Shown here piece after piece: positions 45,567 through 55,434 of a stretch of 64,000 bases of DNA. The stretch's first letter is position 1. Every line of letters begins with the position of its first letter. The stretch is from Phycomyces nitens (Eukaryota; Mucoromycota; Mucoromycetes; Mucorales; Phycomycetaceae). The position numbers were made by a program, and so were the translations under genes. Under the pieces are notes generated by a model, which was not told the DNA's origin, did not search any database, and saw only the letters and a list, made by a program, of their open reading frames with translations. The DNA lies in NCBI GenBank assembly GCA_022702545.1, contig JAHRBC010000003.1:7254001-7318000 (forward strand), given 5' to 3'.

Positions 45567-46081
45567 TTATTTCTCCTCCTTCTGGAAGACATAGGTCAAG
45601 TGGCACTTGCCACAGTACTGGCGGTCAGAGTGCCAGGCCATGAAGACACCAGCACCACAGGTGGCGCTAGGGCACTCACGACGGAGACGGGTGATCTTAC
45701 CAGACTGGTCAACCTTGTAGAACTTGAGGATGGCCATCTTGACCTTCTTTCTCTTGTGCTTGATCTTCTTGGGGGTAGTGTAGGTCTTCTTCTTTCTCTT
45801 CTTGGCACCACCCAACAATTCGCAGTTGAGGTGAAGAGTAGAGTCGTCCTGAACACCATAGAGAGACAAGGCGTTCTCGTTGACAAGGGGCTTGCCAGCG
45901 AAGGAGAGGAGCTGAGCATCGGCAGGGATACCTATATATCATGTTAGTAAGTTATATAAACTCCAGCAATTTACTTACCCTCGCGGGCCTGGATCATGGC
46001 CTTGACATCAGCAACCGAGGAGGAAGCATTGGTGCCAATGACGAGGGTGTTGCCCTCGAGAGACTTTACAAAAATTTGCAT
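45567..46081 (-). CDS. Diverged ubiquitin-like domain fused to 40S ribosomal protein eS31
   Basis: Precursor that is cleaved after Gly-Gly to release ribosomal protein eS31 (S27a). Two exons (45979-46081, 45567-45931) give 155 aa. Residues 1-76 align to ubiquitin without gaps (start [10 protein letters not shown], end LLGG), but about half the positions differ, including Ile44 to Ser, Val70 to Asn, Arg72 to Glu, Arg74 to Leu and Lys63 to Asp; Lys6, Lys27 and Lys48 remain. The eS31 part [20 protein letters not shown] and its zinc-finger cysteines ([22 protein letters not shown]) are normal. The first domain probably serves as a chaperone and is not conjugated. This is the UBI3/RPS31 locus equivalent. 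Confidence 0.95.
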
Positions 46082-47351
46082 ATTGCAGATAACTCGATTT
46101 TTTTTCAACAGTAAATGATTTGCTAGTGAAAAAGAATCTAGGAGAGCATATTTTGGATCAATACAATCGGCATCAACCTTGAAATGAGCCCGTACTAACC
46201 TTCCTCACTATCTGAAAAAACGAAGAAAGAGCTTTGGCCTGCACACCTATCGTCTGCTTTTGTTGATTGTGAAAGATTTTCATTGGTCAACCAAACTCTG
46301 ACATCGATTAAAGAGTCACAATAGCAGGCACAGATGGCAAGTCTACAAGTGAGGATTCAAGGACACTCTTTAATTGCTACTCACAGTGCCACTCACAGTG
46401 CCACTCTAAAGATGATGATGTCAATGGTGTTTTAAAAAAGGGCAGAAATATCGAATTCATAGTTTTAAGGTCCATTGTAGCATATAGGCATCAAGAATTG
46501 TCTAAATTGTGGCACAATTATAGACATTTGAGATTTACACACCAAAATGTGCTCTTGTGCTCCTCAATTCGGGAAAGAAACTTTATGCACGTCAACCCTT
46601 TCAAAAGAATCCCTACTTGATAAAAAGCAATACCATTAATCTAGTCAAATTAAAGGGTCTTTTATTCCAAATAGACTCGAAGATCATCTTTTTGCAATTA
46701 TAGTCCAGTTCCGTAATCTTATTAGGGGCCTTTTGGGCTATAGTCACTTTAGGCAATGCTTGGAAATTATGAAGCACAAGGTTTGAAATTTGTGCCTTGA
46801 TCATAAAATATTGATTGCCAAATATGAAAAAGTGTTGTTCTAAGTATTTCATCTGGCCTTGGGCTCGGAAGTCTTATTTTACTTGATACATGGCAGACCT
46901 CTTTATCTTTCGAAACAAGGAGCCAATGTATTACTATATACAACCTGTTTATAAAATATTAAATATATATATTAAAAAAGGTCAATTTTTACACACTGTT
47001 TGAATACGACTCAAATTTTAAGTTGTTTCCGGTTTGGTTTATTAAACAAAAAGAAGAAGCTTTATATCGTGCCAAATCTTACAATAAGAACCGTATCATC
47101 ATGCCTGTACAATGTTCTTTCTGTTTGATGGCTGTCTTGTTTTTCTCTAGAATTCAATATATTTATATATTATATGTATGCATAATCTGTTGCTATCTAC
47201 TAGTAGCTTGCACAACAAACAATCTTAAACTGTGCTACCTCTCCTTAACTATATATATATATATCTTACAGGATACCCAGCGAATAGATAAATAAATAAA
47301 ACTTGGGATATTTGACTGCAATCCTTTCTTATATTTAAAACTTATTATTAT
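46082..47351. other. Intergenic with eS31 promoter
   Basis: 1.27 kb. The first part is the eS31 promoter. The rest is AT-rich with ATAT tracts (46960-46975, 47250-47265). No gene is recognised. Confidence 0.45.
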
Positions 47352-49253
47352 ATGCTCGTTCCCAGACTACCGTTAGAGATCATTGCTAGGATCGCTAGCT
47401 TTGTCCCGAAAGATGAAATGCCTGAATATATCTTGATTTGCAGGGCATGGAAAGAGATATTTGAAATTGCCATGATGGAAAGGGTCGTCTTGAGCCTTAA
47501 AGGATGGCATGATCTTGTCAGTCTTTCAGATAACAACCATGGCCACCACAAGAAATGGTCAAAAGGGAATTACACTAAAGAATTGGTTTTGCACCCTTAC
47601 ATGTCCGTACGCGATATCCAATACACTTCACTCCAGCGAATATTTCCAAACATCGTACATTTTGATATCAATGTCTTGGGTCCGTACCACTTTATGCAAC
47701 TGATAGCACTCGACTGGAAGACCTGGAGTAATCTAAGAGAGCTACGCATATCATTTAGTCTGGGCCTAGTTAATTACGATTCAAGCGTTATTCTCAAGGT
47801 CTTGGAATCCCTTTCTTGTCTTCGTCGACTAGTTATCCATACAAAGCCGGGAGTAAGAGCAGAGTTCATTGATCTATCCGTCCCTGACATGTACCGAGCT
47901 TCGTTCACTGTCGAAGAACTCGAAACGCTTCACGAACATCTGCCGAGACTCCAATATTTAGACTTGCAGATTGATTTTGTCAAGAATACAAATGAAATAG
48001 CCATCGATAACATAATACCAGCAAAAGACATGGACACACTTAGGGTCAATATAAACAATATCTCTCCTTCTTGGCTGTCTTATTTCGCTCAAAAGTATCC
48101 AAACATCAGGATAATGGAACTAAAGGGCGATAATCCAGCAAAGATGTCGTTTGAATATACGGATATGGTCGTCAAAAAGAACATGACAAGGTTCTATAGG
48201 CTCACAAACACTCTTGGAAAATTACGCAAATTGTCCATCAGCAAATACAACTCTGATAGAGCTATACAACACATCATCTACTGGAATAACCTCCCATCAT
48301 CCAAATCGAAACTGTGCTCCATATACTACGATCCATTGTACATCACCCCCAGTATATACGACTATAGAAGAGACATCATATTCCCACTGAGCCTCATATC
48401 CTCAAAAATCGAGCAGCTCTCTATTCGAGAAAGATATGATTGTGTATTACCATCATCAATCTTGGAAACCATTGAAATCTGTCCAAAACTCACTTATTTG
48501 GATATGAAATGCAATGGACAAGAAATACGATTGGATACGGTCTTGGATACTTGTGTAAATATAGAGAGGCTGTGTATTAAGAGTGCATCGGTTACCACAG
48601 ATAAGACACGGTCTAATGATCGGCCTATATACGGACTACAACTATTGGATATGACCAAGGTTGAAATTGAAGCAGACGTATTTTTCTATATCTCCCAACA
48701 CTGTCCAAGACTCCATAATATGAAGCTTTATAACGTGGGTATATATCGTCGGGACCTTTCCCGTACAAGAGAGTTCCGAGTCTCGATGCCGCACACAAAC
48801 TTTCAAAAGCTTTGTCTCTATGGATTACAATTTTATTATTTGGACGGTACCAACAGTTCTGGTAACATAAATTTCGTATTGATTCCCAAAAATACACAAG
48901 AAACGGACAACCAAACTATCTTCTCTGCCTCTACAAATACATCCGAGTATTCGATAAACTCGTCCGATTATTCATGGAGAAACATATGCTCGAAAATTAA
49001 GTGCTTAAATTTCCCACAGTACTATGTACGGGAAATGCAAGCTAAAGAAATCAAGCGTGCCAGCCAATTGTTTGATGGACTCTACTCTACAGACTCAAGA
49101 GATGAACTGGTCAATAAAGACCTTGATCTTGATCCAAAGATCTATGGGTGGGAAGATGATATTCACAAAGGATACGTGCTGTTCAAATGTAACCATATAA
49201 ATACTCTTGAATACAGAGGTTTCATAAAGAATCCTCCAGAATGGCATATATAA
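47352..49253 (+). CDS. F-box/leucine-rich-repeat protein
   Basis: Single-exon 633-aa protein. The N-terminal about 45 residues (LPLEIIARIASFVPKDEMPE, then ICRAWKEIFEIAMM) form an F-box, the Skp1-binding module of SCF ubiquitin ligases. The rest shows irregular leucine-rich repeats (LRELRISF, LRRLVIHT, LQYLDLQI, LTYLDMKC, IERLCIKS), typical of substrate-receptor F-box proteins. Such one-exon F-box/LRR proteins form large lineage-expanded families in mucoralean fungi. The target is unknown. Lack of introns, unlike the neighbours, fits amplification or retroposition. Confidence 0.85.
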   Translation: MLVPRLPLEIIARIASFVPKDEMPEYILICRAWKEIFEIAMMERVVLSLKGWHDLVSLSDNNHGHHKKWSKGNYTKELVLHPYMSVRDIQYTSLQRIFPNIVHFDINVLGPYHFMQLIALDWKTWSNLRELRISFSLGLVNYDSSVILKVLESLSCLRRLVIHTKPGVRAEFIDLSVPDMYRASFTVEELETLHEHLPRLQYLDLQIDFVKNTNEIAIDNIIPAKDMDTLRVNINNISPSWLSYFAQKYPNIRIMELKGDNPAKMSFEYTDMVVKKNMTRFYRLTNTLGKLRKLSISKYNSDRAIQHIIYWNNLPSSKSKLCSIYYDPLYITPSIYDYRRDIIFPLSLISSKIEQLSIRERYDCVLPSSILETIEICPKLTYLDMKCNGQEIRLDTVLDTCVNIERLCIKSASVTTDKTRSNDRPIYGLQLLDMTKVEIEADVFFYISQHCPRLHNMKLYNVGIYRRDLSRTREFRVSMPHTNFQKLCLYGLQFYYLDGTNSSGNINFVLIPKNTQETDNQTIFSASTNTSEYSINSSDYSWRNICSKIKCLNFPQYYVREMQAKEIKRASQLFDGLYSTDSRDELVNKDLDLDPKIYGWEDDIHKGYVLFKCNHINTLEYRGFIKNPPEWHI

Positions 49254-52215: not shown

Positions 52216-53988
52216 ATCAAAGAAACAAAATAAATTTTTATCAAGATTACTTTTCGTTATTTCTAAAATAAAATGTTATTGCAGTAACTGTTCCCTCTCT
52301 ATTTGTTCTCTGGTATATCCAGGGGATTTTATGTATTGGTGTAATAACAAGTATCAAAATAGGTCTTAATATGAATCATTTTCATGGGTTATAAAGTTTC
52401 AATGATCAAGTATCAATCAACAATAACACAATATCAGCCCCAGATTTTATTTGGTGTTTTCTAAATACACGCAAGAGAGTGAGAAACCGCTTGGCAGATT
52501 AATCTCTTTTGAATGAAAGGCAGTATTCTTTGCAAACAGCTAATAAAAATATCAAGCTATCAAACCGGTCGATAAAGTTGACAAGATCTGCCTTTATGAG
52601 TATCTCGCATTGCGCCAATTATATAAAGATATATGCTGCGAAATAGACAAAGATCACGGCAGAAAACACGGCGTGATTGACAATGGGTTGAAAGGCCAAC
52701 ACTTTGTTCAAATCGAATTTGTTCAAGGTATCCTTGTTAAATATATTGCCAGACGTGAATATTACTTACTAGCAAGGCTGACAATATTTGGTTGCTTGTT
52801 TCGACTTTATCATATCCAGTCAATTGTTCGTATCTTTGCTCTCATCAGCAACAGTATCTGAGCAATGTGTCCCAGCTGTTGGCATCTTTGTGGGTAATAC
52901 TCCATGTACAAAAGGATGAATGGTACGTTTAGATTTAAGCATCGGCTTTTTTTTTAAAAAAAATTGTTTGATAAAACTCTACAAGCAAAAGGCCATTTGA
53001 TACTCGACATATTATAGCAATTATACTAGTCAGGTACAAGTAAATGTATAAAGATGTGCTTCACTAACTGATTTTTGCCAGCCAAGTTCCAAATAAAGAA
53101 GGGGATTGTTTCCAAGGATGGTTATAAGCTCGTGTTTGTTGTCATGACATCCTTGCCAGAGTTTAACACCATTTGTATGGTCCAAATGTTGATGATGGTT
53201 TTTGTGTATAGATGCAAAGAAAACAGAAGAACGAGCTATTATCAGTATGTAAAAGGGTATATTAAACTCATTTTTTATAATGTTTATACAATATGGAGTA
53301 CTTTAGTATAATCTTTATTGATTCTAAGCATATCACTATATTTGTAGCCAAGTTTAATAGCTTTTTTATTTAAAGTCTACAGCCATTTAAAAATAAGGTG
53401 GCTTGTATACCTAGTAAAACTGGTTATAAGGATGTATAAAGAAAGTAAAGTGTCGACTACTAAAACCTTGTTATCGAGTAATGCATACTCTTGTGGCTCG
53501 TATTCTGCCGTGTCGACTTCATTTATTAACCTGTGCACTCACCAATTAATCGATTTCGATTGGCTAAATTTCAATGTCCTTATACCTTGCGGCAAGGCTT
53601 ATATAGTTTGCCTGGCAGGTCCAGAGGACCAAGGATAGTAAAGTCTTTGGGAATTCATTGCAATTGATGTGCATTGAGTTGCTTTGATATCAATCGAATT
53701 AAGCCTAGTGAGATCAATATTTCCTGCATATAATTAACTCTGAAACTAATCTAGTAATGGTATATTCCAACAATACAGAATTAGATGTGTGACACCTCAA
53801 GGATAGAGTGTTTTAATCACGATGTGTCATTGATAGGAAGACAGTCATATTACGGCTCAATTGCTATAAAGCCCATTCCCAAATCCACTTTTTATATTCA
53901 TTAGAGATATTCTCTTTTTCTTTAACTTATACACACACAAAAAGTCATCTTTTGTATCCTGGAAATCATAATAGACTTCAAGTCGCTT
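52216..53988. other. AT-rich region with an unassigned coding-like fragment
   Basis: The plus-strand frame 52590-52861 (LRQLYKDICCEIDKDHGRKH...) has protein-like composition, and a second at 53075-53311 follows. Neither has a recognisable family and stops separate them, so they may be one decayed gene or mobile element. The end of the interval is the CPA1 promoter. Confidence 0.35.
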
Positions 53989-54117
53989 ATGTATATTCAC
54001 GCATTCGAGAAAGCCTCTGCCGACTATATCTGTGATCAAAGTAAGTCAGATAACAACTACTGATAGATTTACTCACCTTGTATATATATAGTCTGGAAAT
54101 CATCTTGCAACTGTTAA
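53989..54117 (+). CDS. Arginine attenuator peptide uORF, split by an intron
   Basis: Leader peptide upstream of the CPA1 coding sequence. Exons 53989-54040 and 54092-54117 (51-nt intron, GTAAGT...TATAG) join to 25 codons plus stop, ending 33 bases before the CPA1 ATG. The spliced core DYICDQIWK lines up with DYLSDHLWR of Neurospora arg-2 and DYISDHIWK of yeast CPA1. Asp falls at residue 12, exactly as in Neurospora, where that Asp is essential for arginine-induced ribosome stalling. In those fungi high arginine stalls ribosomes at the uORF stop and blocks CPA1 translation. Without splicing the frame ends after CDQSKSDNNY, losing the IWK half of the core. Confidence 0.88.
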
Positions 54118-54150
54118 AAGCACATCTCATATATTGACCAAACCAACAAA

Positions 54151-55434
54151 ATGTCCATCTTGAAACAAATCCAACTTACTCGCCCTGGCCTAAAAGCCGC
54201 TTGGGGTGTCCATGGTATCACTCGTACCTTTACCTCAACACCCTTTAATAAATATGCTGCCTCTTCAATTCCTGCTGCCCTCAAGCTCAAATCTGGTCAG
54301 ATATTTCAAGGAACTTCCTTTGGTGCCGAGAAATCTACTTTTGGTGAAGCCGTTTTTACTACTTCTCTTGTCGGATACCCGGAATCAATGACCGATCCCT
54401 CCTACACTGGCCAACTCTTGGTCTTTACTCAACCTTTGATTGGAAACTATGGTGTCCCTGGAGAAATCAAAGATGAATTTGGGCTCTACAAGTACTTTGA
54501 GTCAGAGGGTATCCAAGTCCAAGGCATCATTGTGAATGATTATGCCACCCAGTACTCTCACTGGACAGCTGTCGAGTCTCTTGGCGAGTGGTGCAAGCGC
54601 TACAATGTTCCTGCAATCAGTGGTGTCGACACCCGTGCCATCACCCACAGACTACGTGAGCAGGGATCCACACTTGCCCAGTTGGCCATTGGCGATAGTG
54701 CCCTAAAGAACGATATCTCTAGTCTGGATTTTCCTAATCCCAACGACGAAAATTTGGTTGCAAAGGTGTCGACCAAAATACCAATGCACTACAATCCAAA
54801 GGGAGATGTCAAGATTGCAGTCGTTGACTGTGGAGTAAAGCAGAATATTCTTCGTTGTCTAGTCAAACAAGGAGCCAGTGTTACAGTTCTTCCCTTTGAC
54901 TTTGACTTTAACCAGATTTCTGATCAGTTCGACGGCCTCTTTATCTCAAACGGACCTGGTAGTCCCACCACATGTACTGAAACAGTAAAGAACCTCCGCA
55001 CAGCTCTTGATTCTTTCGATAAGCCTATCTTTGGAATCTGCATGGGAAATCTGCTCCTAGGAATGGCTGCTGGTATGGATGTCTACAAACTTCCATTTGG
55101 AAACCGTGGCCACAACCAGCCTGCCATCAATGTCGACACTGGAAAATGCTACATCACTTCACAGAATCATGGCTATGCCCTCAAAGACGATGTTATGCCC
55201 AAGGGATGGAGACGCATGTTTGTCAATGCCAATGATGGCTCCAATGAGGGTATCCGTCACGAAACCAAGCCTATCTTTTCTGTTCAGTTTCATCCCGAAG
55301 CCAAGGGTGGGCCACAAGATACAGAGTATCTCTTTCAAGACTTTTTGCGACATGTTCGCAGTGATAAGCTCAAGCGCTCTGGTTCTCAGACAATTCTTGA
55401 AGAACAGCCCACTACTGTTTCTGCCTTTGCTTAA
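54151..55434 (+). CDS. CPA1: Carbamoyl-phosphate synthase, arginine-specific small subunit
   Basis: Glutaminase subunit of the arginine-pathway carbamoyl-phosphate synthase. Single exon, 427 aa. A basic, Ser/Thr-rich N-terminus (about 35 aa, RTFTSTPF) is a likely mitochondrial presequence. Then comes the CPSase N-terminal domain (FGEAVFTTSLVGYPESMTDP, SGVDTRAITHRLREQGS) and the class I glutamine amidotransferase domain (VVDCGVKQNILRCL, ISNGPGSP, nucleophile in GICMGNLLLGMAAG, ITSQNHGYAL, catalytic pair in VQFHPEA). The nucleophile elbow has Asn-Leu where His-Gln (GICLGHQ) is usual. The pyrimidine-specific enzyme would be a fused CAD/URA2-type protein, so this is the arginine form, confirmed by the leader peptide just upstream. 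Confidence 0.97.
   Translation: MSILKQIQLTRPGLKAAWGVHGITRTFTSTPFNKYAASSIPAALKLKSGQIFQGTSFGAEKSTFGEAVFTTSLVGYPESMTDPSYTGQLLVFTQPLIGNYGVPGEIKDEFGLYKYFESEGIQVQGIIVNDYATQYSHWTAVESLGEWCKRYNVPAISGVDTRAITHRLREQGSTLAQLAIGDSALKNDISSLDFPNPNDENLVAKVSTKIPMHYNPKGDVKIAVVDCGVKQNILRCLVKQGASVTVLPFDFDFNQISDQFDGLFISNGPGSPTTCTETVKNLRTALDSFDKPIFGICMGNLLLGMAAGMDVYKLPFGNRGHNQPAINVDTGKCYITSQNHGYALKDDVMPKGWRRMFVNANDGSNEGIRHETKPIFSVQFHPEAKGGPQDTEYLFQDFLRHVRSDKLKRSGSQTILEEQPTTVSAFA

Follow-up and report, generated by a model that had tools for sequence, protein, structure and literature searches.

A spliced uORF in the CPA1 leader of Phycomyces probably encodes an arginine attenuator peptide

The window (the whole 64,000-nt stretch of DNA that was analysed) carries, on its plus strand, a gene for a carbamoyl-phosphate synthase small subunit, CPA1, preceded by a short upstream open reading frame (uORF) that is split by a predicted intron. 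The uORF starts at the ATG at 53989, and a GTAAGT donor at 54041, a TAG acceptor ending at 54091 and a TAA stop at 54115-54117 complete it. With 54041-54091 taken out as the intron, 53989-54040 joined to 54092-54117 reads as a 25-codon uORF, MYIHAFEKASADYICDQIWKSSCNC-stop. The features are as follows.

53865-53870, plus strand: TATA-like element (TATAAA), a candidate promoter proposed from a motif scan
53893: second TATA-like site, from the motif scan
53989-54040, plus strand: uORF exon 1, from the ATG to the first base of codon 18 (MYIHAFEKASADYICDQ plus A); start context AAGTCGCTTATG, with C at -3
54041-54091, plus strand: uORF intron, 51 nt, phase 1, GTAAGT...ATATAG, with a branch-like CTGAT or CTCAC; predicted from the sequence and from comparison with other introns in the window
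54092-54117, plus strand: uORF exon 2, the rest of codon 18 to the TAA stop at 54115-54117, reading (I)WKSSCNC and then the stop
54118-54150, plus strand: 33-nt spacer from the uORF stop to the main ATG
54151-55434, plus strand: CPA1/arg-2-type carbamoyl-phosphate synthase small subunit, 427 aa, single exon, identified by Pfam, NCBIfam and best matches

The ATG at 53989 is the sole ATG within 53851-54150, the last 300 nt 5´ of the CPA1 ORF. A first-pass annotation, made from the letters alone, had described a 25-codon uORF that appears after removal of a 51-nt intron, and the splice signals, the reading frame and the single leader ATG all agree with that description. When alternative acceptors for the donor at 54041 were considered (five AG sites up to 54150), a core with Trp (Ile-Trp-Lys) was obtained from 54091 alone. 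Read through without splicing, the uORF gives MYIHAFEKASADYICDQSKSDNNY, then two stops. This intron-retained form has 24 codons and ends ...DYICDQSKSDNNY-stop, departing from the spliced peptide after Gln17 and losing Ile18-Trp19-Lys20. The annotation had also stated that the unspliced form ends early, which is only partly right, since 24 codons are hardly fewer than 25.

The product of 54151-55434 matched Pfam CPSase_sm_chain and GATase as well as NCBIfam CPSaseIIsmall, the last well above its cut-off, and its N-terminus resembles a mitochondrial presequence by eye. Judging from its best matches and its stand-alone form, CPA1 is probably the arginine-type small subunit. Outside the genome, its best match came from Phycomyces blakesleeanus (89%); other Mucorales came next and, lower among the best 120 of 7998 matches scored, other Mucoromycota, Zoopagomycota and chytrids. 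The domain and family assignments and these best matches thus confirm that the gene downstream of the uORF is CPA1. The host had been guessed to be a non-Dikarya fungus, and this too is borne out: both CPA1 and a second gene in the window are best matched by P. blakesleeanus, which points to a Mucorales fungus near Phycomyces. The second gene, named an F-box gene by one source (47349-49247, plus strand, 633 aa), has a single match outside the window, from P. blakesleeanus at 49% (E up to 0.001), and is therefore either fast-evolving or family-restricted. Elsewhere in the genome there are three further loci resembling the carbamoyl-phosphate synthase small subunit (G000:C5:7377421, C6:5963496 and C1:3125923), with 52-53% identity to CPA1 and open frames of 808-890 aa, from which the stand-alone CPA1 is distinct; one is on CPA1's own contig, ~68 kb away. 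These loci resemble CAD/URA2-type genes, of which the genome would then have three.

Arginine attenuator peptides (AAPs) are among the few characterised eukaryotic arrest peptides (excerpt of PMC10501990). Like them, the Phycomyces uORF sits in the leader of the small-subunit gene, and its 25 codons include the core Asp-Tyr-aliphatic-x-Asp-x-aliphatic-Trp-basic near the C-terminus, with Asp12 present. The Neurospora crassa arg-2 AAP (PDB 2xl1) is encoded before the same gene by a uORF of near-equal length (24 codons vs 25 here), and it has Asp12, Tyr13, Asp16 and Trp19 at the same positions and a basic residue at 20. The two peptides differ, however, at Ile14, Cys15, Gln17, Ile18 and Lys20 of the Phycomyces uORF, which also has Ala at 11 where Neurospora has Gln before the Asp and has its Trp six residues from the stop instead of five. 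The N-terminal parts are mostly dissimilar, only 2 of the first 11 residues being shared. The Phycomyces core is interrupted by the predicted intron. The Saccharomyces cerevisiae CPA1 leader peptide (PF08252) likewise has 25 codons and shares the core DYI.D.IWK, with Ser replaced by Cys and His by Gln going from yeast to Phycomyces, although the yeast Asp is at 13 and the Trp at 20. As described in excerpts of PMC7969011 and PMC6492140, the yeast leader also has a single uORF with an inefficient start context, and mutation of the matching Asp abolished the arginine response in yeast (excerpt of PMC7969011). Over the nine core residues, the Phycomyces uORF is identical to yeast at seven and to Neurospora at four, compared with six of nine between yeast and Neurospora. 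The earlier reading of the core as a match to the ascomycete AAP, with Asp12 as in Neurospora, therefore stands for the residues and the register. Its family label was too narrow, since an AAP is also described outside the Ascomycota, in the uORF of the CPA1/arg-2 homologue of Cryptococcus, a basidiomycete with the same gene downstream (excerpt of PMC7049704; compared here by description).

Searched against Pfam (24,736 models, E up to 10), the uORF peptide gave a single match, to Leader_CPA1 (PF08252), at 13.3 bits and E 0.054, with uORF residues 10-22 aligned in register on profile positions 10-22. The gathering cut-off of PF08252 is 18.5 bits, so by Pfam's own rule the peptide is not filed in this family. 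An arginine-sensing peptide could in principle have evolved independently of the Dikarya AAP within Mucoromycota, a reading with which the poorly shared first 11 residues agree. There is also a possible precedent in the Toxoplasma gondii ApiAT1 uORF, an arginine-responsive uORF peptide that needs an Asp and is AAP-like; it precedes an arginine transporter rather than CPA1 and is compared here by description, and its authors raise convergence as a possibility (excerpt of PMC8370653). Against such a separate origin stand the same downstream gene, the Neurospora register, the near-equal length, the agreement with yeast at seven of nine core residues and the in-register Leader_CPA1 match, and we consider it rather unlikely. 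An ancient origin of the AAP sensor is plausible and rests on one genome; as no related fungal leader was found in the viral and genome contigs searched, common descent seems reasonable rather than demonstrated.

For the intron, we used as a standard three introns of the window that have a Pfam match across the junction, of 47 nt (ubiquitin-like eS31), 51 nt (NAD-glutamate dehydrogenase) and 70 nt (protein kinase). Like the uORF intron, each of these has a GTAAGT donor, and two of the three have a TAG acceptor; the 47-nt eS31 intron ends ATATATAG, as does the uORF intron. The uORF intron contains two branch-like motifs whose penultimate bases lie 28 and 16 nt from the intron end, and when the same pattern was sought in the comparison introns, the kinase intron showed none. 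The three were kept from five joins given to Pfam, while six further open-frame joins were not given to Pfam. A 58-nt join was dropped, despite a Pfam match spanning the junction, because a rival 103-nt join is also open; a 72-nt HEAT-repeat join was dropped because no above-cut-off match was shown to cross it. Only introns supported by Pfam in this way were used, since a mechanical scan for open-frame introns did no better in total than its control (33 vs 34). By these comparisons the uORF intron appears to be one of the genome's ordinary short introns, and it is most likely constitutive.

The first-pass annotation had gone further and suggested that splicing could switch arginine control on or off, the retained 24-codon uORF being unable to sense arginine without Trp19. 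All that favours this is that the intron splits codon 18 just before Trp19 and that the retained form would be expected not to stall ribosomes. The splice signals are ordinary, the length falls within the range of the three Pfam-supported introns, nothing in these data points to regulated retention, and an intron that is always removed would leave the peptide unaffected. A regulated switch is thus unsupported and, we think, quite unlikely. The compound proposal that the arginine sensor predates the Dikarya-Mucoromycota split and that, in the Phycomyces lineage, the intron just before Trp19 puts arginine control under splicing, with its retention lifting the repression of CPA1 by arginine, seems equally improbable.

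To judge how readily such a peptide appears by chance, candidates were collected under two splice rules. Under the strict rule, the two strands of the window together held 884 candidate short ORFs, 133 of them spliced; the uORF was the sole candidate bearing the core and scored 37.5, compared with 20.0 for the runner-up. Dinucleotide shuffling of the 300-nt leader, repeated 20,000 times, never produced a score of 37.5; the best was 26.5. The permissive rule, which admitted any GT..AG intron of 35-120 nt and peptides of 12-60 aa, gave 29,090 distinct peptides in the window. These were scored with an AAP profile, an HMM based on the Neurospora and yeast AAPs, and the uORF peptide ranked first at 16.6 bits (E 0.0064), followed by a peptide at 8.7 bits. 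Of the two known AAPs as used here, the Neurospora letters matched PDB chain 2xl1, ARGININE ATTENUATOR PEPTIDE, exactly, and the yeast letters scored 58.8 bits against Pfam Leader_CPA1. Searching the PDB with the uORF peptide alone (E up to 10) returned no AAP; the matches were three chains of Squamous cell carcinoma antigen recognized by T-cells 3, which we took as chance. That an unrelated leader AUG and splice-like signals merely happen to spell the core would fit the single genome and the Pfam score under the cut-off, but it is made very unlikely by the shuffles, by a first rank with a gap of ~8 bits and by the location of the peptide before the one expected gene.

Searches for a second copy of the uORF found none. 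In the 49-Mb, 11-contig genome, where the window occupies G000:C5:7254001-7318000, the exon-1 pattern of core plus donor occurs once, at the uORF locus, and the CPA1 leader also occurs once; the core pattern in intronless form occurs nowhere, while a reversed control pattern occurs once. A six-frame Leader_CPA1 search of the genome, in which exons were searched singly rather than joined, gave no match above the cut-off, the uORF included. Because the intron splits the core, searches of unspliced genomic sequence can miss such peptides, as this search did. A weak match on contig C1 (14.4 bits, E 2.26) reads FTCIDYLSQH with no Trp after it and was judged to be chance; in the corresponding control, 1 of 14 genomes gave a sub-cut-off match. 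When proteins were searched with the uORF frame, nothing matched, as expected for so short a spliced frame.

Relatives of the leader were sought through CPA1 itself. A CPA1 protein search of viral contigs returned 12 stretches, none of them a relative, and an alignment of 23 CPA1 proteins (from the 120 listed) found 14 loci in viral contigs at 37-53% identity, none taken for fungal as judged by identity and collection. A search of a genome contig collection found two loci, titled Bacteroidales and Nitrosopumilus, and no fungal one. On the upstream stretches of 4 of these 16 loci (L007, L008, L009 and L020), the AAP profile detected no core (best 6.5 bits). An AAP-like peptide was likewise not found in the fetched upstream stretches of the three CAD-like loci under the permissive intron rule, with both strands covered for L004 (best 7.9 bits). 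Gene models in which a uORF had been fused to CPA1 were also looked for, and the core was absent from the first 120 residues in all 120 CPA1 matches listed. Joint acquisition of the uORF and CPA1 from a Dikarya fungus, which the Dikarya source of the fungal AAP reports considered might suggest, is highly improbable given that, as judged from a match list, the species-naming rows among the best 120 of 7998 CPA1 matches held non-Dikarya fungi only, Mucorales nearest, with no Dikarya name seen.

Taken with the gene context, these data make it very probable that the leader of the Phycomyces CPA1 mRNA carries a spliced 25-codon AAP uORF at whose stop codon an arginine-dependent stall blocks CPA1. 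We infer that the region is transcribed from upstream, that the uORF is spliced and translated, and that stalling on it depends on arginine. Scanning ribosomes would reach the uORF AUG first, and some would bypass it, since by the usual rule its context is weak (C at -3). When arginine is high, the nascent peptide, through Asp12, Tyr13, Asp16 and Trp19, would halt the ribosome on the uORF stop codon. The halted ribosome would keep others from scanning on to the CPA1 AUG, which lies 33 nt beyond that stop, and might leave the mRNA open to decay. At low arginine, CPA1 would be translated by ribosomes that have bypassed the uORF or completed it. Position -3 is C at the uORF start and A at the CPA1 start, which fits the leaky-scanning model of AAP control in yeast and Neurospora, as presented in excerpts of PMC6492140 and PMC11550727. 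With the exon junction 23 nt upstream of the uORF stop, a junction complex would not be expected to persist downstream of the stop.

An open-literature search, with subscription papers outside its scope, found no AAP in a non-Dikarya fungus among the papers listed, and one from Mucoromycota may already have been published. The 2007 study by Hood is reportedly the main survey of fungal AAP evolution. AAPs had previously been described in Ascomycota and in a basidiomycete, Cryptococcus (excerpt of PMC7049704). If the AAP works in Mucoromycota, the sensor is either older than Dikarya or has evolved more than once. Asp12, Tyr13, Asp16 and Trp19 would then mark a minimal core kept over that span, and Mucorales leaders, as a natural alignment of great depth, could be used to test how arginine and the ribosome tunnel are read.

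Finally, a locus on the minus strand of the window at 45570-46081 joins ribosomal protein eS31 (S27a) to a ubiquitin-like domain that has diverged strongly and ends in ELLGG. Another eS31 locus (L025, G000:C1:1764318) has a divergent domain of the same kind, and a third (L024, G000:C4:6316346) matches at 82% over its best segment and contains one in-frame TGA. Ordinary ubiquitin repeats are present elsewhere in the genome, for example at L026, which is ~50% identical to the divergent domain.
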